Positions 17,190 to 42,508 of a stretch of DNA of 64,000 nt are shown one piece after another; positions within the stretch are counted from its first letter, which is position 1; the number at the start of each line of letters is the position of its first letter. The notes below the pieces were generated by a model, which saw only the letters and a program-made list of their open reading frames with translations, searched no databases and was not told the DNA's origin. Where the stretch lies: NCBI RefSeq assembly GCF_020382885.2, contig NC_058497.1, positions 18,344,330-18,408,329 of the forward strand, in the 5' to 3' direction. The DNA is from Scatophagus argus (Eukaryota; Chordata; Actinopteri; Scatophagidae). The position numbers and the translations under genes are program-made.

Positions 17190-20100
17190 TCACACAGAGA
17201 CACAAGTAGTTAAGATGACACTGCAGATTATTACAGCCACCACAGGGATGCTGCAGCAGCTCAGGGAGAATAAAGGCCAGTCTGTGTGAGAAAGGAAGAA
17301 GCATTCAGACTTTGAGTTGCATTGTGCTAGATGTGTGTACAAGCAATTGCTGCATATTTAAATTAAGTTACTTTATGCAGATTGTCTGTAACTACCAAGT
17401 ACTACCCAGTCAGCAGTGTGCATGAGGTGATGTATCATAACTGGATAGCTTAAGTCGAGCAGCTGGTGTACAGTTTGGGTGGGGTTTTGAATGAAATGTC
17501 TCTCCATAATATGCACAATACATAAAGTGAGGAACACATCACATTCAGTGGAGATCCTTACCATCAAGAGCTGAGTGAGGTGTGGGATTTGCTGAAAAAG
17601 TAAACCAAAGACTACCATTAGAATTGACATGTTTTTGTAACAACCAAGAAAATTAAGAGCTTCAAAGAGTAGATAAGTAGAGCTAACTATGGCAGAAGTG
17701 TGAATTTGATCACTTTAAGGTAATATTGTTTGTTTTCCACTTTTGCTTACTTTGACGCTTGTATTCTTTGTCGGTCTGAATGTGTGACAGAGTATCTGCG
17801 GTAGTCAGCCCATCAGTCACACCACTGCTCAGGTTGCCCACAAGAATGGCAGGCGAAGTGATCGTAGCGCTGTCGGACACGTACTGGGCCATTCTCTTCC
17901 CCAGTCGGGGGGAAGAGCCACAGTCCTGTTCAAAAACAAAGAAGACGAAGAAAACTCTACTGCTCACCTTCAGTATGTTATGCGCTCAATCCAAACAGTA
18001 TACTTAATTCTGTTTTAATGAATACTGTAAGTTCATGTTTCTGTATATACAGTATATTACTGTATATATAACATCATGTACCAAAAACTGTTTTGGTAAA
18101 CCAGTATGAAATGTCCAACAGACTAAGCAATAGAATAAAGAACAAAGGCAGATTTTTTTATTGATAGAGCATGATGTCGAGAGTGTAAATCGACCGTTAT
18201 GTGTTACAGCTTTGGTGTCTACTCACAGGCAGTAAGCTGCTACATGAGGACACCTCACAGAGTCTGGTGTTGCAGTGCAGGTAGAAAGTGGAAACTGTCT
18301 TATTTTTGTGCTCCACAAATCTGAAGGCCTCAAAGGAGAAGTGTGCCGCCTGAGACGCCCCATTGAGCTCCACCTTAGTTTGTGCGTCACGGTTACACCT
18401 TAGTTTAAAGATGCCAAATTTAAATAGCTTGCTCGGAGTTGATTGTCCCAATAATTGGAAGGCACTATATACTGTGGTTACATTCAGACTCACCCTACAA
18501 AAAGGTCATAATAGGTGTTAAGCACAGGATATGGACTTGTTGTTGCATAGCATCTGTCGAGCAGAACGTTGAACCTGCAAACACAGACAGGAGGATTTTA
18601 ACTGATGTTTCATTAAAAAATATAGTTGAAACATTTGACAAATACACTCATGTTGATATATGGAGAAATTCGTATTTTGTAGTGGAAAGACAAGAGAAAT
18701 AGTCAGTTACTTATTTTGCTTTAGAAGTGCTAGTTGGTGGATTTTGTTACTGTTGGACAGAACCAGGCCAGATGTTTCCCTCTGTTTTCAGTATTTATTC
18801 TAAGCTAAGCTAAAAGACTCACAGCTGTAGCTTCATATAGAGAAAGCACATAAAATTGTTATCTCCATATGTAACTCTACACAATAAAGTGAATAAACAT
18901 GTTCCCAAAATGTCAAAAGAATATTCCTTCCAATACCTGTCAGTCAGATTGGTGGCAATAACTGCCACATAAATCTTGGTCTTCAGGTTGAGTCCTCTTT
19001 TTGGTATGAGAAGAATCTCTTTGTACTGATCATCCTGTTCCACAGAAATGTAAGAACAAAATCACGTTATGATATTTAAAAAAAAAAAAAAAAATTCTCA
19101 AAGATTGAGCGGGTCTTACTTTGTAGAGCTGCATACTCAGTGTGCTGATGAAGGTCCCATTGTTGTCTCTTATGGCGAGACTCACACCTGATCTGTATCA
19201 AATGGAAAGAAATTCACAGTCTTGGATGAATCAAAATGAATCCCATTTATTTCATATGCAGTGTAGGTGTTATTCTTGATGTCACATGACATACTCACAC
19301 GCCCACTTCAGTGTTGTTAAGGAGATACTGCATCGGGTAGAGGCAGAAGAACTTGTACAGGATCTGCGGGCGATAGGTGATCCTACCTGCAGAGGGGTCT
19401 ACAGAGGTAATTGTGCCAGAGATGTTGACGTACTGGACATTGCCGAAATCTGCAAACTCTCCACTACCAATTTGATTGATTATCTATTGAAAAAAAAAAG
19501 ACAATTTAAATCAGTTTTAAGCTGCATTCTTTGATACAGCAAACTTTGTCAAAGATTCTATTCTATTCTAATATTTTTATGTGCTGGGAAATCTGAACTA
19601 TCTTAACATGACATGAGAAAAAAATTAATAAGAAAGCAAGTGTCTCGCTTAAGATAAATATTAAATAAATAAAATGCCTTCATTTGATGGTTGCAGGAGC
19701 CATCTCTTAAGGAGAATCTGAATTTTAATGCTGGTGGGTCAACAGTCCAGTCAGCAGTCCCAAAACACTCAGATTTGTTGTACTCATTATTGAGGACCAT
19801 CCGAGACTCATTGTAAAGAGCTTGATACACCGGGCAAAGGTAGATGCTTAGGTCCATATACTTAGTGCCACAGATCACAGTAATGTCTGAGTTTTCTGAA
19901 AGGGATAAATAAGGGAGGATGAAAATCAGTGAGATCAAACACAAATGCATTAATAAACCAGACTGGTCATCCTATAAACTTTTCATTAGCTCTCTGAAGA
20001 AGTCTTAGTAAATGCCACAAACCCGGAGGTCTGTATGTGTCATGTCCAGTGCAACTTTCTGGTATCTGGGCCTCGGTCCTCAGAATTAGGCCAAGCTGGC

Positions 20101-20301
20101 ACATGTAGAGGACCAGCATCACTTGTCGGAGATTGTACCTGTGAGAAAACAGCAAAACAATGGAAATCAAAACGTCCCTTCATTCTGTTTTCAAGAGGAA
20201 GCACTCATATTTTTTTCATTAATTGATCTTCATTCAGCAATATTATACGTTGAATAATAATAATACGCTGAAGTATAGGCAACTTACCTGTAAGTCTTCA
20301 T
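17190..20301 (-). CDS. ZPLD1/cupulin-like zona pellucida domain protein, copy A
   Basis: Secreted or membrane-tethered ZP-domain proteins polymerise into extracellular matrices. ZPLD1/cupulin is an inner-ear cupula component (family knowledge). Exons in coding order: 20288-20301, 20023-20138, 19678-19895, 19299-19483, 19120-19192, 18937-19034, 18494-18574, 18227-18398, 17751-17925, 17562-17591 and 17190-17281. Phases agree and give 417 residues, against about 415 in human ZPLD1. A signal peptide (hydrophobic VMLVLYMCQLGLIL) ends near TEA/QIP. ZP-N has four Cys (VICGTKY, YLCPVYQ, SECFGT, GSCNHQ). ZP-C carries NISGTITSVDPSA, VAVIATNLTDR and ELNGASQAAHFSFEAFRFVE. Only a dibasic KR (RLGKR) marks the expected cleavage site. 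The last exon encodes IPVVAVIICSVILTTCVSV and stops at once, with no cytoplasmic tail. Exon 3 ends in a GC rather than GT donor at 19677-19676. The gene may be functional or beginning to decay. It could be an unnamed fish ZP family close to ZPLD1. Confidence 0.8.
18725..18935. repeat. Dispersed repeat family Y in a zpld1-like A intron
   Basis: It contains 'ttgttactgttggacagaac', 'ttctaagctaagctaaaag', 'tgtagcttcatatagag' and 'tgttcccaaaatgtcaaaag', the family Y order. The homologous intron of copy B (23982-24063) is only 82 bases and lacks it. The insertion in A, or the loss in B, therefore followed the duplication. Confidence 0.55.
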
Positions 20302-20334
20302 TTTGTGTCTGGCTATTTATTTCCAAGTCTCTCC

Positions 20335-20341
20335 ATTTATA
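20335..20341 (-). promoter_or_regulatory. TATA box of zpld1-like copy A
   Basis: Minus-strand TATAAAT, extended as TATAAATGGAGAGA, lies 33 bases before the ATG at 20301. The same 14 bases stand at the same distance in copy B. With a start site about 25-30 bases downstream of a TATA box, the 5' leader would be only about ten bases. Confidence 0.65.
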
Positions 20342-22065
20342 GTGGCCACCACGTAACAAAAAGGTGTAAGATGAAACGTATCAGACAACAGAGTAACATG
20401 AGCTGGGACCCAACATCAAGATGCGCTTTTGTTAAATTTCCTCAAAAAAAAGCACAATGTGTCAAAGAGGCCTTTTCATAAAATAATTGCCGGTAAAATA
20501 TACACCATTTTATAATTTATCATATGTGTGAACATAAAGCAGCTATTACACTATACTATATGTGTTTTGTGTCTATACAGCATCATGTTTGTCTGCAGTT
20601 CAGTCAACATGCAGTTTGTTGGTTTGCTCTGCTGAATGAACATGCTACAGGTTGTTGATGTCCAGTAGATTTTACTAGTCTTTGAGTAGTACTCTCTGTT
20701 TTTTGTGTCACATCACTGAATGAGGATGTAAGATGGTGTAGGATAAAATATAAATTCAAACTGCTGGAGGTAGCATTATAACACACCGAGGAAGGCTGAA
20801 GCTGATATTCCCAAATAATTCTGATTACATCAGAAAAAACAAAGGTCTTATTTGTTTGTAACCTAATCAACAAAATGTTGTGCCAATCTGTTGAATAGAT
20901 GCTTACATGTTGCTATATAAGTGAAAACTTTGACCCGCTGGTGTAACCAGATAAATACCCAGGAGATCACCAAATTCATTAGGATTTATGCTTTGGGGGC
21001 CATGAATGTCTTCAACAATTCATGACAATCCATTCAGTAGTTATTGAGACATTTCAGTTTGGGGCAAAGTGGTGGACCAACTGACATAAAGCCACACTGC
21101 TAGCATAGCTAAAAATATTATTTGGAGCTCTTGGGAAAATTGAGTGACCTTTTCTCTTATACTGCAGCTCTGTTCCACCCACAAGGAATGACTTTCAGTG
21201 TCCTGTGTTGACACCATTTCTCTTCCATAATTCCTCCATGTTTAGTCTTTGTAATCACTTAATTGTTTTCACCGGGGGGGGGGCACAAACACGATTCCAA
21301 CTTTCGCCTTTTCAACTTAAAATATAACGATATGCCAATACGTTCACAACTTGTTTCTGCTGCCCCAAGTAGCCAAAAAGTTTGTTATTGCAGGTTTAAA
21401 AATAGGCACCATGTAAACTTAATTTAAGGGTTGAAATAAAGTTTGCAAAACTGAAAAAATAGTTAGTAACCATCTATACTGATTATGTATTAATGTAATT
21501 TAAAGTAAATTATTAAAAATCAGCAACTGTCCTACTGGACTTATATATCAGGCAATTTTTCATCACTCGCACCAGCCTGTTAGCTTTCACCTATTCAGTG
21601 TGTTCAAGTATTCAACAAGAGACAGCCAAAATATTAATATTTATTTTAATGGTGTTTTATCAAAGAAGAAAGCATGAGTACTTTTTTTCCATCATTGTCA
21701 CTGAAAACATTTTTCAAGTTCACCATTTCTAACTGATTACACGTAATTATGCTATTCGTTAAATACTTCCATGTGACTCTGAAAACACAATTAAAACTAA
21801 CAATTATAATACACAAATTTTGTACATGATTACAATTTCTGTATATGATTGATAATGATTATAAAATTGCAAAGTCAGATTATTGCAGACCACCTTGTTA
21901 TAATTCTATTTGTGAAATGAAAAAGCTAAATAGTTGCATGACTAGTGCTTCTCATGACTTTTTTTACTATCTTTGCAGCATAATGGCCACACTTTGTAGA
22001 TGATAGAGTGTTGAGCTGGCAGTTTGATGGAGGCATGAAGGGACCCCAATCTCAGTCAGGTGATG
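20342..22065. other. Spacer between the two zpld1-like genes
   Basis: No exon is seen. A family X-like segment lies at about 20945-21135. A G10 run stands at 21273-21283. The remainder is AT-rich and includes the promoter side of copy A and the 3' side of copy B. Confidence 0.5.
20945..21135. repeat. Dispersed repeat family X, one-end copy
   Basis: It carries the 'gatcaccaaattcattagg', 'caacaattcatgacaatcca', 'agtagttattgagacatttc' and 'ctgctagcatagctaaaa' blocks. These match the right-hand halves of the copies near 44800 and 61340. Confidence 0.5.
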
Positions 22066-25000
22066 TCACTGAATGATTGGTTTTTTCTGTCTGAGGTACA
22101 ACGCAAAGTAAACACCCATGGCGATGATGAGAATAGCTAGGATGATGATGCACACAATGACAGCCACCACGGGGCTGCTGTAATTGCTTTCAGATGACAT
22201 TCCTGTGTAAGCAGGGAAGAAGAAAAGCACAAATATGTCAGATAATATTACACTTCATGAGTATATTAATTATTAATGTTGCTGATTTCTGACCAAGCCC
22301 GGGCTAAAAGAGTAGCTTCAGAACATAATGCAGATTCTTACCCTGAGAGGCTGAGAATGTTTGAGCATCTCCTGAAAAAATTGAACCAAAACTATGATCA
22401 GTGATTGATAGAATCAGAATCAGAATCAGAATTCCTTTATTTATCCCTGAAGGGAAATTCTTAAATTCTTAAATATAGCATTCCCCTTTTCTGTTATTAC
22501 TGATCAAATGAATAATTAGACTGTAAATTGATAAGGTTCTAATTTGGTTACTTTTCTAGAGTTAGATGTGCAGATCGATACCTCTCTCGTGTACGCTAAA
22601 TATGAAGCTAAATATGAAGCTAAATATGAAGCTAAATATGAAACTAAATATGAAACTAAATATTCAGCACATCTCTTAGCTTAGCTTAGCACAGAAACTT
22701 TGAAACACAATAAGGTAGCCTGGCTCAGTCTGAAAGTTAGAAAATGCACCAAGAAGTACCCCTGAATAACCTCAGTAACTAACATGTTATCCTTATTTTC
22801 TCTGTTTAACCTACACAAAAGTGTAATGAGTACACTTTATGATTTACTGATTTCCAGTCCAGAAAAATTGCATTTCTAAAAATGTCTAACTATTTCCTTA
22901 AGACAAGATAGCACAAACATATTCAAGGGGTTCTTTCAGGAATAAACTGACCTCAACAACATATGTTTGCATTTAAATGACAAAGACTGAATGTAAAACA
23001 GAAATTTATTTTGCTCACAAGGTGATGTGAGCAAAATAAATTTCCGTGAGGAGGATAGCAGAAAAGATGGATGGGTCAAGAAATCATCACAGTTTAACAA
23101 GTGGTTGGTCCTGTTTCTGACTGTCAGTGTTGCATTTTTTAAAAGCTTGATGTCATGGTGAAAAAACACTTATTTTAGATATGATATTTGACAAATTCTG
23201 TCAACTGACATATACCAAATTATTCATCAGTTTAAACAAGAATCTACAGTCATTCTGAATCAACTTATAGATCCAAATTTGCACATTTTAAGGTAATGGT
23301 GTTTACTTTGTATCTTTGTGTCATTGTGATTAGGTTGTAGGGATATCTTTGTTTGTCACAGTTTGCCCTGAAGACGCACCACTGCTCTGTTTTCCCACAA
23401 TAATGGCGGACGAGGTGACTGTAGCATTGGCCGACACATCCTGTGCCTCTCTCTTTCTCCTCTTCTGGGAACCTCCACATTCCTGTTCAAAATTAAAGAA
23501 AGACAATCAAGACTCTCGGGTGTGGCATGCCCATTTGTGAAAGTCATTACCATTATTATTATTATTATTATTATTAGGACTCTTAAATAAGAATTTGGGT
23601 GTCTACTCACAGGCAGTAAGCTGCTACATGAGGACACCTCACAGAGTCTGGTGTTGCAGTGCAGGTAGAAAGTGGAAACTGTCTGATTTTTGTGCTCCAC
23701 AAATCTGAAGGCCTCAAAGGAGAAGTGTGCCGTCTGAGACGCCCCATTGAGCTCCACCTTAGTTTGTGCATCATGGTTACACCTTGGGTGAAAAAGAGAC
23801 AGGTAGCATTACAGCACTTGAGGAAGCACAAAGACCTAGTATGGAGATGGGTGAAAAATATCATATAGGCCTACTGTGGATATGTATGTATGCAACTCAC
23901 CCTACGAAAAGGTCATAATAGGTGTTAAGCACGGGGTATGGACTTGTTGTTGCATAGCATCTGTCAAGCAGAACGTTGAACCTTCAAGGACAGGAGGTTA
24001 AATGATATTAGTTGTGGTGTCTTATAAATGTAGTTTTACTGTGAACTGTCAAAATGAAGATACCTCTCTGTTAGATTGGTAGCAATAACTGCCACATAAA
24101 TCTTGGTCTTCAGGTTGAGTCCTGTTGTTGGTATGGAAAGAATCTCTTTGTACTGATCATCCTGTTCCATGGAAAAGTAAGCACAAAATCAAGTTATAAA
24201 ATTGTTGAAAAAAAACACTAAAAATTCTCAAAGATTGAGCGGGTCTTACTTTGTAGAGCTGCATACTCAGTGTGCTGATGAAGGTACCATTGTTGTCTCT
24301 TATGGCGAGACTCACACCTGATCTGTATCAAATGGAAAGAAATTCACAGTCTTGGATGAATCAAAATGAATCCCATTTATTTCATATGCAGTGTAGGTGT
24401 TATTCTTGATGTCACATGACATACTCACACGCCCACTTCAGTGTTGTTAAGGAGATACTGCATCGGGTAGAGGCAGGAGAACTTGTACAGGATCTGCGGG
24501 CGGTAGGTGATCATACCTGCAGAGGGGTCTACAGAGGTAATTGTGCCAGAGATGTTGACGTACTGGACATTGGAGAAATCTGCAAACTCTCCACTCCCAA
24601 CTTGATTGATTATCTATTGAAACAAAAAGAAATATTTCAATGAAATCAGTCTAAATCTGTTTTCAGACTGATTCTTTGGTGCAGGAATTAAAGATCCTGT
24701 GCTTGGTTATCATATAATGCTATTGATTCCATTGGTTTACCTACAGACTTTACACTATTCTAATACCTTTAAGTACTGGAATGTCTTTGTAACCACCATA
24801 GCAATAAATCTTCCAATAAATCTGAGGGAAAAAGGCAAATCAGTTGATCTACACTTTGAAAATGTTAGGTGAAGCTATTTTGAAGGGTACCTTAAAGTTG
24901 TTATTGCAGGATGACATGGAACTCTCATTTAAGGAGAATCTGAATTTTAATACTGGTGGGTCAACAGTCCAGACAGCAGTCCCGAAACACGCAGGTTTGT

Positions 25001-26003: not shown

Positions 26004-28091
26004 CTGTCGCCTTCACTGGGGCGTGTGAGGGAATGTTTCAGACAATAGTGTAACACGAGCTGGTCCTTTAACGTCATAATTTTTCTGAGTATTTTACATA
26101 CATGAGGTATCTGAAAAAGGAGTTCAAAATGTAAGTTCAGCTGTGTAAGTAATGGTTTGTGATAATAACAAATGTTTCTTTCTAAATACATAAATATACA
26201 GAGTCAGCCAAAATAATATATACACACATGAGAAAAAAGGGGTAATGCCATCTGTTGTGAAAACATCGTACAACAGTACACAGTGTTATTGTAATTTGAT
26301 CAAACTTCGAAAGAGGTATCTATATGTATTTATTAATCTGCCTTTCCCATTATTGTGTTATGTTGCTCTTTAATTGATTTTAAAAACCTTTCAATTCTTA
26401 AAATAACTAAAATGTGTCTCAAGAAGTGTTGAGAGACATTAATGTTTACCCAGCCTGTTTTTGGCCATATTTAGTAGTTTAAAGTGATAAATCTTCATAC
26501 TGCATGCCTGCAGCTGGTTGTATTGGTTGGTTGTAAGTTGAAGCATTTAAAACGAGAAATTTGTTTCTTCGAAGTACTAAAGAGGAAGCTGATGGTGAGT
26601 TGTGTTATCTTGCACTCTGTGTCTCAAATTGCAAAGATGAAACTGTGTAATCCGTAGTTTGGACATATTTACCAGCAAGGCAACAGATCGATTCTGACTC
26701 CTCTTGTTGGCACATTTATAGCAGTCACCTTTAAACTTCCAGTAATGCATTAGCAATCACTTCACATTTTGGCATAAGATATTAACTTAATATGTAAGAT
26801 AGTGCAAGGCTAATGGCTGGTAATGACATTCTTAAATGGAAAAACACTTCTTGTCTTTGCTACATGCAGGAGTGTTGCACAGGAAACCGTAATGTGTGAC
26901 CACAAACAATGTTTTCATAGACCTATGAAAGAACAGGATTTGTGATCTGATCACAAGTCTTCCCTTTTGAGATTTTTTAACGTGATAAGAGTCTCATTAT
27001 TGTTCTTCAGAGTGTGACTTTTGTAATGGATCGGTTATTGTTATGGCCTCAGGCTGTAAACTGTAAATTTCTGTGCTGTTTTGTACAGTCAGCGAATAGA
27101 AGACACACCTATCTGAGAGAAATCCAAAGTCTTTTGTGAAGCATCAAAACTTGAAAGGGACTCCTGAGTATTTTGGGTCCCTAAAGAACAGCACCACAAT
27201 GCACCATGAGGATCCAGCCTGAAAAAGGTGCCTGTTAGATTACTTTGGACGTATCCAATGTCAAATGCCAGTTTTAATCTCTCCTTTGTTGTCTAAATAA
27301 GCATTTGTCTGCAAGCCATGCCATCAGTGTTACTGGTGGCACATTTCTTAAGAAGTTAGACCCATAAGCATTAAATGTGGTCACCCTTGGGAAATAATAA
27401 TACTAACTTGGTAAGGGCCTGTGGCAGATTTGGGTCAGGATTAATCAAAACCGCAAATGTTCTGCACGAAAAGGGAGAGAATACAGTTCATCCAAATTAT
27501 GATGACTCATGACTTAGCTGAAAAGTTTGAGCATAAATTTAACTTCAGTTTATACCCGATCATCTAGTTGATTAACTATTACAGGCCAACACGTCAACAC
27601 AGTGAATATTTTATTGTGTATCCCTGACAATGTGTTGTGTGGGAATGAAAACTTTGCCAGGTCAAAAAGTAAAATTGAATTGTAGCATAGAAATTCCAAT
27701 GTTATGTTTGAGGTAAATTAGAAACAGTGTCATGACAAAGTTTGTCCTTTAGAGAACAAACTCTAATACTAAGTTTGTATTTCAACCATAGAATGTCCTG
27801 CTTAGAACACATCTTGGTTACAGTTTTTTTAATTAACCAGATTTAATGGAATTGTTCAATATGTTGCACTTATAAACCGATGTGAAACTGATCATCTGAA
27901 GTGATAAGTCTACAGAACTGTCACCTGAATCTGCAGCTCATTTATAAGCTTTATAACAAGTATCAGCTGATTATTTTTGCTGTCCTGCCTACAATTTTAT
28001 TGTTTTGGTTCACTCTTGCTGCTCCTACAGTCATTTTTGAAAAACCAATATAAACCTACTATACACTACAGACGGTCACTGTTGGCAACTA
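26004..28091. other. Gene-free stretch between zpld1-like B and the Tc1 remnant
   Basis: AT-rich sequence with no splice-flanked frame, RNA gene or repeat that I recognise. The short frames in it carry no family resemblance. Confidence 0.5.
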
Positions 28092-29160
28092 CAGTGCATC
28101 CGGAAAGTATTCACACCGCTTTGCTTTTTTCCACATGTTGTTATGTTACAGCCTCATTCCAAAACAGATTAAATTAAATGACTTCCCCAAAATTCTGCAC
28201 AAAATACCTCATAATGAGAAAGTGAAACAAGCTTGCTTGAATTGTTCGCCAATTAATTAAAAATGAAAAACAAAAAATGTAACATGCACATAAGTATCCA
28301 CATTCTTTGCCATGACACTCAAAATTGAGCTCAGGTGCGTCCTGTTTCCATTGATTATCCTTCAGAGGTTTCTACAACTTGAGCTGAGTCCACCTGTGGT
28401 AAATTCAGTTGATTGGGCATGAGTTGGAAAGGCACACAGCAGTCTATATAAGCCCTCACAGTTGACAGTGCATTTCAGAGTACAAACCAACCATCATGTG
28501 GGGGATGTTTTGCAGTAGCAGAAAGTGGGAGACTAATAAGGGTTGAGGGAAAGATGACTGCAGCAATGTACAGAGACTTCTTTGCTAACAGCCTGCTCCA
28601 GAGTGCACTGGACCTCAGACTGGGGCGAAGGTTTATCTTCCAATAGGACAACAACCCTAAGCCTATAGCCAACATCACAAAGAAGTGGCTTTGGGACAGC
28701 TCTGTGCAAATGTCCCTGAGTGGCCTCGCCAGAGCCCAGACTTGAACCCTATTGAGCATCTCTGGAGAGATGTGAAAATGGCTTTGCACTGACGCTCCCC
28801 ATCCAACCTGGTGGAGCTTGAGAAGGTCTGCATTGAAGAGGAGGAGAAACAGCCCAAACATAAGTGTGCCAGTCTTATAGGGTCATACTCAAAAATACTT
28901 GAGGCTGTAATTGCTGCCAAAGGGGCTTCAACAAAGTATTGATCACAGGGTGTGAATACTTTTGTACATGTTATATTTTTGCTTTTTTATTTTAATAAAT
29001 TTGCAAAACAATCAAGCAAACTTGTTTCACTTTGTCATTATGGGTTATTTTGTGTAGAATTTTGAGGGGAAAAACTGAATTTAATCCATTTTGGAATGAG
29101 ACTGTAACATAACAAAATGTGCATAAAGCGAGGCTGTGTGAATACTTTCTGGATGCACTG
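28092..29160 (+). mobile_element. Decayed, internally deleted Tc1/mariner-type transposon
   Basis: The ends are inverted repeats. The left begins 'cagtgcatccggaaagtat' with 'ccacatgttgttatgttac' inside. The right ends 'aatactttctggatgcactg' with 'gtaacataacaaaatgtg' inside. A TA dinucleotide flanks each end (28090-28091 and 29161-29162), as expected for Tc1 target duplication. Plus-strand transposase remnants include MTAAMYRDFFANSLLQSALD and, nearby, an 'xDNNPKP' catalytic-region relic. Stops interrupt them, for example in place of the Q before DNNPKP and after LARAQT. At 1069 bases, with the N-terminal DNA-binding part not visible, it cannot be autonomous. Confidence 0.85.
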
Positions 29161-29162
29161 TA

Positions 29163-31140
29163 GCTGGTGAACATAGTGGAGCAGACAATAACCTTTTCCC
29201 TCAGGAGTTCAGAGCTATAATGCTCAGCAGTGTCTTTCTGGATGCAACTTCACTTTTTTTGCTTCACTATCATCTAAGTCATTTGTTTAGTCACAGCAGT
29301 TTTCATAACTACTGTCTTAGCATTGGATGTGAACATACAACTGAAAGCTCTCAAGGCATTAAACTGAAAGAAATTGCTCCTGAATGTCATGAAAGAACAC
29401 ATGACTACATGTGAAAAAATGTACTATATGTACTATAACCCCTGGAAACATATTATACTTGATATTTTTCCTGGAAAACCATAAAGAATATAAGGATCTT
29501 ATTTGTTTACTTGCTCCTGTTTTATTATAAGCACAGAACAGCATCAACATGCATCCCTTACACCTTGCAACAATGGCAGGCCACTGCACGTAACACTCAT
29601 GTGTTCATGAATGTGACTCATGCAAACGTGAGGAATATTGGACATGCATACTCTTGAAAGGGAACAAAAACATCTACAGATGTTTACACTGAAACAAGAA
29701 TGATGGGGTCATGAGTCTCAGGGGGGAAAACGAGTGTCTGATGACAGTAAAGGCATTTCAATGTACACCCACTAAAGTGTCTCTTGAGAACATTGCAGTG
29801 AATATTATGAATAAAAACCTGACTTACGTAACACGACAATGAACGCCCAACGTGTTCACGACACTTGACATTTTTCAAATCATGTTTTAATGCCACTCTA
29901 AACTTTTGATTTGAGTCCTAGCATGTTCAGGCATGAAACAACCTGAGTTTATCTGATCATCCAGGCTTTTTTACATTTAGCCCAGCCTCCATTAGATCCA
30001 CAAGCTTACAGAATTAATTTGAATCCTATCTGACCTTATTTTTCCTTCCTTCCTTCCTTTTTTTTTTGAATTGCAGACTCAAGTTAACCAGACAGTACTG
30101 CATTGTTTAGTGTAATCTAACAATAGATTTCTTTTCAGCAACAGACTGAAATTAGAACATGGTGTACACTGAGTCACCCTATCAAGCACATGCAACACCT
30201 GAGCAGTATCATAACATGTTATGACAGTAACAGGAGGAGCCTTTAAAAAAAAAAAAAAAAAGTTCACACCAGGTCACCACTCCAAAGCATGTACTGTAAA
30301 TGGTAAACCAATCCAGGGTTTTTTAGCCTAAGCCTCAGTGTTGTTGATGCTGCTTCTAAAATGAACCCCCACCCCGAAGGTGTGGTTAAGCTTTTGAGAC
30401 TGTGGGAGGAAAGTGGAGTACATGGAGAAAACCCATGCAGGCACAGGGAGAACCTGCAAACTCCACCCAGAAGGACCCAGACCAGGACTACAACCTGGAA
30501 CCATTTACTGAGGCTACAGTGCTAACCACCACCACACTACCATGTCACCCCAAAAACAAAATAACAAGTATTATGATGTGATATTATACTTTAAAATAAC
30601 CTTTTTATTGATCTCTAAATGGAAATTAGAGATGCACTATATAGTTACAACCTGCTTTACTGGCTTCAGAAGTGCTGAACACATCAATGCATCCGTAATT
30701 AGAATCCAGTAATATACATTAGTCTGAAATATGCCATTCTGCATTTTGATGCTTTAAATGCTTTAAATGACATGAGTTTCACTTGTCTCAAAGTATTCCT
30801 GCACTGTGGTGTTGCCACTGTTACTCAAGTATAAGGTGTGAGTACTGGTTATTCACAGCATGTGTCCATATGTATGCAAAGTACAATATGAACCCGCACC
30901 CACAGTGTGCAGGTTCATATTTGCCATTACTTTGTGATGTGTACAGTGATGGTATTGATTATATTTAGATAGTTTTACTCAATAACATTTTCAAGGCACT
31001 TACAATAGGATATTATATAGTGCTGCAACGGTACTTCAAATAATCTGCATACTTTCCCCACCACTGCAACCTGTCAATGAATGACTGCTAGAAGCCATGT
31101 AAATCTGGCTGAAATTCCAAAATGTTGATAGCAACTGCTG
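29163..31140. other. Intergenic region upstream of hspa8
   Basis: No coding exon. It contains poly-T/poly-A tracts (about 30052-30067 and 30246-30261) and an old interspersed repeat at about 30390-30545. The remaining sequence is AT-rich with no feature that I can name. Confidence 0.5.
30390..30545. repeat. Widespread vertebrate-type repeat ('gtgggaggaaa...gtactggagaaaaccc' family)
   Basis: Blocks in order are 'actgtgggaggaaagtggag', 'catggagaaaacccatgcag', 'cacagggagaacctgcaaac', 'tccacccagaaggaccc' and 'cagtgctaaccaccaccac'. I know this order from countless copies in fish genomes. It is old and diverged here. I cannot name the exact family without a repeat library. Confidence 0.65.
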
Positions 31141-40846: not shown

Positions 40847-40935
<89 letters not shown>

Positions 40936-42508
40936 GTCTATCTATCTATCTATCTATCTATCTAATTCTCAAGCCTTTACGGAATTATATTTGGGATTAG
41001 TTGCTTATTCTATTATTCATTCTGCTTTATTATTATTTGTTTCTCTTTCTCTTTATTATTTGCTGTTTTTAATGAATTACAGAGCAGGCTGTATTTATGT
41101 CGTAAAATGTGTCCTGGAGTAGATGTTCTTTGAATTAATGTAAATGACTGACCAAGCAGAAGGAAAACAGTTCTCCCTCTTGATCCAGTTTAGTACATTT
41201 GTGAAGACACGTCAAGTGGTCTCAGTAACAGACTGTGGCTGGTTGAGCTGAGCCATCTGTGAGGGAGGGAGCGTGTAAAACCACAGAGACCATAATCCAT
41301 GCTACAAGCCTAAAAGCATAAAATTGTAGAACCCTTCTAAATTGCATAACCCCTTCAAATTGCATCGGATTACCATTATCCTCCCAGCCCGGTGGGACTC
41401 TGTGAGTATTTGCCAAAGGCAGTGGAGTCCAGCTCACTTTAGATGCCATTCGACAGCCTACCTGCCAAAATACTTCAGGCTGGTGCTCAAAGCAAAAAGA
41501 TCTGAACACAAAAACCTTTTTATTTCCCATCGCTGACACATTTCAATTTAACTCCTCTCATTAAGCCATATTCACAAACAGCCCTTCTCACAATACTAAT
41601 CAGAAGGCATCAAATCTTACACAGTATCTGGTGTCAGAGAAGTCATTTCACTGGGAACATTCAGACCTGAGGGACGCTCGACTTGCTCGTCTGTCTCGTT
41701 TTCCCTCTTTCTCGTTGTCCTCTCTTTGTGTACACAGCATACAGTACATGTACGCAGTAAAGTTTACCATGTACCATCTTAGGTTAGCATACTAATTAGC
41801 ACTAAACACAAAGTAGTTCAGACTGATGGCGGTCTTTTGCAGGTATTTGGCCAACCAGATGGGAAATGGAGAAAAATACTGGAAATTATTAAAAATTTGT
41901 GCACACAGTTTGTGATCTTGATTTAGTCACTTGTGTCACCTTCATACAGTTGATTTGCGTGTACCCCATCAATATGGATCACATGAACTATTACAGTTTT
42001 ACTTGTGATCTTGAGCTAACGTGTGGATAGGCGATATTACGGGTTCTGGCTGTTTAACACAACAGTGTGCTTCCTTTGAGATCCCTTTTACGATAGTGCA
42101 GACGTTGTCCATCTCAGCCTCAGGGTGCTGGAGCACTTTATAAATGTATTAGATGTTGTTTTCTTAAACTTTAGACTTCATTGTGCCTCAGATGTTTGCT
42201 GCCCTTTTTAAGAGGGGAGGAAGCAAACAGGGTTAATTATGATAAACCAAGGGCATGAATTACCAATTTGTGCACACAAATTATTAAATGGTAAGCACCA
42301 ATTACCCATGACACCTCCAGATATCTGTAGGTCATAAACCAACTGAACAAAATTACATTTTTGACCTGATGAGAAATCACCAAAGTTCACAAATAATAAA
42401 GATATTTCATTCTGGGCCAAAATAAATAAAAATAAAAAATTAATTTAAAAAAAAATAATAAAAAAAATAAATTAAGTATAATTCAAGGGTTTTTTTTGTA
42501 ATAAATGT
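39181..42508. other. Intergenic region between lim2 and the robo3 3' end
   Basis: AT-rich DNA with no exon seen. It contains a poly-T run (about 40030-40047), a retroposon tail with a long tetranucleotide array (40830-40964) and no other named feature. Confidence 0.5.
40823..40964 (+). repeat. Retroposon 3' end with (TATC)n microsatellite
   Basis: 'gaatttcccttgggatcaataaagtatc' is the familiar fish LINE/SINE 3' end. It runs into about 29 TATC units at 40847-40964, with a single TGTC interruption near 40936. The array probably grew from the element's own short tail repeat. Confidence 0.85.

Follow-up and report, generated by a model that had tools for sequence, protein, structure and literature searches.

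How can two tandem genes, most of whose introns are too diverged to be aligned well, carry one intron that is identical at every position? The question is raised by a 64,000-nucleotide stretch of the genome of the fish Scatophagus argus (C5:18344330-18408329, in an assembly of 570 Mb and 48 contigs), referred to here as the window, which holds two ZP-domain genes, copy A and copy B, arranged in tandem on the minus strand of one 27.5-Mb contig. Intron 4 of copy A (19193-19298) and intron 4 of copy B (24323-24428), both 106 bp long with GT-AG borders, had been described in a sequence-only reading as free of differences, and the comparison bore this out (0/106). The best explanation is recent ectopic gene conversion at the DNA level between A and B, which we consider highly probable. 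The process is a recognised one and the event is of an ordinary kind, here in what seems to be a new gene pair.

The models of the two genes were built exon by exon from sequence alone. Copy A (20301-17191, minus strand) encodes 417 amino acids and copy B (25963-22067, minus strand) 411 amino acids. Both have 11 exons, an uninterrupted open frame and GT-AG borders, with the exception of the donor of exon 3 in copy A.

Divergence along the gene pair

The longest run of identity between the two copies was 190 bp (A 19157-19346, B 24287-24476, both on the minus strand; 0/190 differences), and comprised the last part of exon 4, intron 4 in full and the first part of exon 5. Beyond it there was a single difference, followed by another 66 bp of identity that reached into intron 5. 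The similar region was wider than the intron that had been singled out initially, since BLAST matched 18933-19511 of copy A to 24060-24641 of copy B, around exons 4-6 on the minus strand, at 94%. Exon 4 differed at 7/185 positions and exon 5 at 1/73, in line with the handful of sites noted for the flanking exons, and exons 4-6 together held 16 differences. A second block was found at exon 8 (A 18214-18398, B 23598-23782, minus strand), where the exon had 4/172 differences, the number that had been estimated, and the similarity continued for 13 bp into intron 8, with 7 bp of this past the GTGAGT; within this block 18214-18300 of copy A was an identical run. Three introns thus contributed to the blocks of low divergence: intron 4 over its full length, intron 5 with 30 bp and intron 8 with 13 bp.

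The strong divergence that the sequence-only reading had seen in exons 3, 9, 10 and 11 and in most of the other introns was also found. The four exons differed at 32/218, 31/103, 15/30 and 34/85 aligned sites, respectively, and intron 5 at 11/85. Introns 1-3 and 6-10 aligned poorly, with 38-51% mismatches and gaps, and short remnants that appear to be homologous lie beside some of the exons, at the end of intron 1, at the start of intron 2 and in parts of intron 3. The contrast between intron 4 and intron 5 was significant by Fisher's test (P = 9e-5).

Segmentation was carried out on 660 sites, namely the third positions of the exons, introns 4 and 5 and, from intron 3, the final 140 columns of the alignment; the remainder of intron 3 and introns 1, 2 and 6-10, where the alignment was unreliable, were left out and gapped columns were dropped. 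The optimum by the Bayesian information criterion had five segments, and in two of these the divergence was close to zero. From exon 1 to intron 3, 50/185 sites were different (27%); from the end of intron 3 into intron 5, 3/231 (1.3%, the least diverged part of the block around exons 4-6); from there to the start of exon 8, 20/119 (17%); in the rest of exon 8, 0/53 (0%); and in exons 9-11, 31/72 (43%). It follows that there are two separate blocks of low divergence, one that begins at the end of intron 3 and reaches intron 5 and another that covers most of exon 8. Divergence was therefore far from even along the alignment, and the sharp block that had been anticipated was found twice.

Synonymous divergence (dS) followed the same course, with 0.39 in exons 1-3, 0.05 in exon 4, 0.07 in exon 5, 0.03 in exon 8 and about 1.0 in exons 9-11. 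The exons between the blocks had values of 0.14 (exon 6) and 0.25 (exon 7). None of 2,000 permutations gave a difference in synonymous divergence between exons 1-3 and exons 4-8 as large as that observed. For exons 6-7 taken by themselves, the difference was significant neither against exons 1-3 (Fisher P = 0.18) nor against exons 4-5 (P = 0.09). When the 97 differences were redistributed at random among the 1,148 alignable columns of exons 1-8 and introns 4-5, a run of 190 bp was reached in 0 of 20,000 shuffles, as compared to 1 of 20,000 for exons 3-8 with introns 4-5 and 6 of 20,000 for exons 4-6 with the same two introns.

The original proposal was a recent conversion of the ZP-C module. 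The recent conversion is sustained by the blocks, the contrast in dS and the outgroup test described below, but the module was named imprecisely because what the 190-bp run encodes is the last part of ZP-N together with the linker (exons 4 and 5), whereas exon 8 belongs to ZP-C. Nor was there one tract but at least two, with the more diverged exons 6-7 (dS 0.19) between them.

Comparison with other ZP loci

Seven further ZP loci of the genome, designated L025-L031, were compared with the pair. L025, on contig C14, was the closest to A and B among the matches listed, as judged by exons 3 and 4 (51-53% amino acid identity). The divergence of A and B from L025 was comparable in exon 3 (34-38%) and in exons 4, 5 and 8 (25-39%). 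Between A and B themselves, in contrast, it was 15% in exon 3 and 1-4% in exons 4, 5 and 8. In 2x2 tests of the Hudson-Kreitman-Aguadé type with L025, L026, L028 and L031 as outgroups, exon 3 was contrasted with exons 4-5 (P = 0.0005-0.0008) and with exon 8 (P = 0.00006-0.005); the four tests use common A/B differences and are not independent. Exon 6 aligned poorly with the outgroups L025 (58% different from A) and L028 (54%), and the weight was placed on exons 3, 4-5 and 8. Slow local evolution was rejected as the main cause of the low divergence, as exons 4-5 and 8 diverge about as fast as exon 3 in the outgroup paralogues. The comparison with the four loci, with its shared A/B differences, thus spoke against local constraint or a low mutation rate as the explanation.

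The ratio of nonsynonymous to synonymous divergence (dN/dS) was 0.73 in exon 4 (5 replacement and 2 synonymous changes) and 0.83 in exon 8 (3 and 1, respectively). Replacements were not depleted in either exon, and purifying selection at the protein level is therefore not what preserves the likeness.

Comparison of intron 4 with the seven paralogous loci gave nothing beyond chance (best E value 0.47). A search of the whole genome returned two matches, A and B themselves, so that there was no sign of an old conserved element, and no third copy that could have served as donor matched the intron genome-wide. Outside A and B, the protein matches to exon 8 were at most 56% identical among the best candidates of 39 matches. 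A search for relatives by peptide pattern in prokaryote and viral collections matched 51 and 8 stretches, respectively, none of which encodes a relative. Intron 4 was rejected as a candidate exon: it is open in one shifted frame, with an open reading frame of 41 amino acids, but GT/AG splicing preserves the ZP frame, reading on from the exon meets a stop at once, and an equally open frame was present in 932 of 5,000 shuffles of the intron.

Direction and age

Polarisation of the 87 nucleotide differences between A and B in exons 2-8 by L025 assigned 29 derived states to A and 39 to B and left 19 unpolarised; for the 8 differences located in exon 6, the alignment with the outgroup was poor. With these counts no donor can be named. 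The amino acid differences in the same exons, with the state of most of the loci compared (up to seven) taken as ancestral, gave 19 derived in A, 11 in B and 11 unpolarised, which is not significant evidence for relaxed evolution of copy A (binomial P = 0.20). Within exon 3 alone, 10 amino acid changes were derived in A and 4 in B, with 2 unpolarised (P = 0.18, not significant). There was no indication of GC-biased conversion, as strong and weak differences were balanced (39 and 38, respectively, in exons 2-8 and intron 5), and the GC content of the 190-bp run was 41%. The absence of any difference at about 125 silent sites of this run corresponds to a divergence of at most about 2.4% since the last event (rule of three, calculated by hand).

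Explanations for the low-divergence blocks

Low divergence inside otherwise diverged paralogues, with sharp edges and with non-coding DNA included, is what distinguishes conversion, and it was found here. The pair would be an old tandem duplication, with a silent divergence of about 0.4 to 1.0, in which at least two ectopic conversions occurred after introns 1-3 and 6-10 had drifted apart. One conversion would have run from the end of intron 3 through exon 4, intron 4 and exon 5 to the start of intron 5, and the other would have taken in most of exon 8. Going by established recombination biology, a break in one copy may have been repaired from the neighbour, which lies about 5 kb away in the same orientation. 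In intron 3 and to either side of exon 8 the tracts end near points at which homology is lost, but in intron 5 the end lies inside alignable DNA. We infer the repair event itself from what was observed directly, the block structure, the inclusion of intron DNA and the unequal relative rates. A single unequal crossover should be unable to give two blocks parted by the diverged introns 6 and 7.

The same pattern might be produced in an ordinary old duplicate if selection kept exons 4-8 and intron 4 alike because of a coding or regulatory role or the use of intron 4 as an alternative exon. The fold encoded by exons 4-8, ZP-C with the end of ZP-N, is indeed conserved, and the open shifted frame of intron 4 could be read in the same way, but synonymous divergence is low as well, the replacements in exons 4 and 8 are not depleted, the outgroup paralogues evolve in exons 4-5 and 8 about as fast as in exon 3, and intron 4 has neither a detectable counterpart in the paralogues nor a frame that stands out from its shuffles or can be read through from the exon; we regard constraint as a very improbable cause of the blocks. 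An artefact of assembly or polishing, in which the reads of one copy were used for both in a nearly identical stretch, is only slightly less improbable. Mis-mapping of reads between near-identical paralogues is a known problem that could erase a few real differences, and the identity was read from the assembly consensus. However, within the single contig A and B are each surrounded by diverged introns and flanks of their own, and differences persist in both blocks, 4 in exon 8 and 16 in exons 4-6. Mixing of reads, moreover, requires that the copies be nearly identical beforehand, so it may sharpen a block but could hardly create 0/190 beside introns that cannot be aligned. A reverse-transcribed transcript that recombined with the other copy would give blocks limited to exons, and the exon 8 block does stop near the exon borders amid diverged introns; the genome also has an intronless relative on contig C11 with an open reading frame of 386 amino acids, and the family seems retroposed. 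Both blocks hold intron DNA, however, for which reason the genomic neighbour is preferred over cDNA as the repair template, and introns 6 and 7 have not been lost. The cDNA route is mostly refuted by this intron content, barring a transcript that retained intron 4, and must be considered extremely unlikely.

Several observations weigh against recent conversion between A and B. The evidence comes from one species only, that is, from A and B and the paralogues of the same genome, and their identity was read from the assembly consensus alone, where an error is conceivable. The edges of the exon 8 block almost coincide with the exon, which fits conversion at the DNA level only by way of the lost intron homology, and short homology is a poor substrate in unlinked sequences of mice, as stated in a passage of a review (PMC3966223). 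The dS intervals of single exons are wide. There was no replacement change in exons 5 and 7 and the overall dN/dS of exons 4-8 was 0.33, so some coding constraint is present, and the argument that constraint is not the cause leans on exons 4 and 8, in each of which the changes are few. Lastly, when the shuffling was confined to exons 4-8 and intron 4, which are similar already, a run of 190 bp was reached in 262 of 20,000 shuffles and is only mildly unusual, with the consequence that the signal lies mostly in how the blocks differ from their flanks.

Domains and C-termini

The pair has a ZP-N plus ZP-C module. Pfam matched PF00100 (ZP-C) to the whole proteins of both copies and PF23344 (ZP-N) to the whole copy A protein; in copy B the ZP-N match was obtained with the exon 3 fragment and not with the whole protein. 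Nothing but ZP families was above the Pfam cut-off in either protein. A comparison of copy B with solved structures gave GP2 and uromodulin as the top matches. Copy B has a furin-type RRKR at residue 330, a hydrophobic segment from residue 378 and then a short tail, and L025 has a basic furin-type stretch, RRRR, after ZP-C as the counterpart of this RRKR. A furin-type site followed by a transmembrane anchor after ZP-C is the ZPLD1-like layout; the name zpld1-like was given in the sequence-only reading and is putative. The copy A protein has no RXK/RR motif and ends in a hydrophobic stretch without the cytoplasmic tail of copy B; the region of copy A concerned is 17191-17925 (minus strand). Signals for attachment of glycosylphosphatidylinositol (GPI) have such a C-terminus that ends in a hydrophobic stretch.

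These differences suggest a functional interpretation that we consider unlikely, in which conversion is restricted to the filament-forming ZP core and the two genes share an interchangeable polymerising core on two different anchors. In copy A the furin motif and the tail would have disappeared and the remaining C-terminus would resemble a GPI signal, and selection would favour conversions of the core and remove those at the ends.

Exon 3 of copy A (19678-19895, minus strand), which differs from that of copy B by 15%, ends in the GC donor noted above (19676-19678, minus strand). The context, AAG/GCATTT, is weak by the consensus for GC donors. None of six GT sites downstream in intron 3 of copy A (0/6) would preserve the frame. 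From its sequence, copy A may be a specialised copy or a copy in early decay.

Related loci and other features of the window

Loci L025-L029, of which L025 is the nearest to A and B, are located at G000:C14:1.02-1.39 Mb and at C5:18.306-18.318 Mb, with L026 pairing with L028 and L027 with L029. The ZP clusters on the two contigs look paralogous by way of a genome duplication, with a later tandem duplication that would have given rise to A and B. The intronless relative, L031 (2085-3245; match G000:C11:3983078-3984235), has an open frame of 386 amino acids, an RRKR and a C-terminal hydrophobic segment. Its DNA matches were to L026 and L028 (76-86%), and it looks like an intact retrogene. A stretch of intron 6 of copy A (about 18733-18808, minus strand) was 79% identical over 77 bp to an intron stretch of L025, and is perhaps a dispersed repeat. 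About 2 kb upstream of copy B there is an inverted repeat (28089-28302 and 28951-29163) with arms of about 215 bp that are 83% alike. The window also contains a TATC microsatellite at 40847-40964 (29.5 units, 98% matches).

Parallels and significance

A search of the literature on duplication, paralogs and conversion of zpld1 and ZP genes in fish found no publication on the A/B pair, as judged by titles and the openings of abstracts. The closest parallel is the tandem pair of red opsin genes of medaka, LWSa and LWSb, of which passages in PMC6389941 report that introns 2-5 are 99.4% identical (351/353) while the first intron cannot be aligned, and that at least two non-allelic conversions were inferred, the latest of them recent. 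Like A and B, these are tandem paralogues of a fish that stem from an old duplication and have an unalignable intron beside near-identical introns and exons. As described there, however, the opsin tract extends from exon 2 to the 3' end and a sister species was compared, whereas A and B have two short interior tracts and were studied in one species. Gene conversion and many copies are also mentioned for SPP120, a seminal plasma gene of cichlids with a ZP domain (PMC6302530, citing Gerrard and Meyer 2007). The likeness to A and B lies in a fish gene, a ZP domain and gene conversion, and implies no orthology; the SPP120 protein has vWD and C8 domains as well, whereas in A and B nothing beyond ZP families reached the Pfam threshold. 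For Caenorhabditis, the parts of a review that deal with tandem paralogues (PMC3966223) state that conversion reaches introns in 15% of the detectable events in C. elegans and that short conversion tracts occurred in a pair with a Ks of 28%. Conversion between tandem paralogues that extends into introns is common to both systems, but the review concerns nematode genes with short introns, for which there are population data.

The pair is a clean case of patchwork homogenisation, in which silent divergence ranges from about 0 to about 1 within about 3 kb of one gene pair. As a result of this patchwork, whole coding sequences would be a misleading basis for dating this ZP pair or assigning its orthology. 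Copy A, provided that it is translated, would also be an example of a gene with changing ends and a core that its neighbour keeps young.

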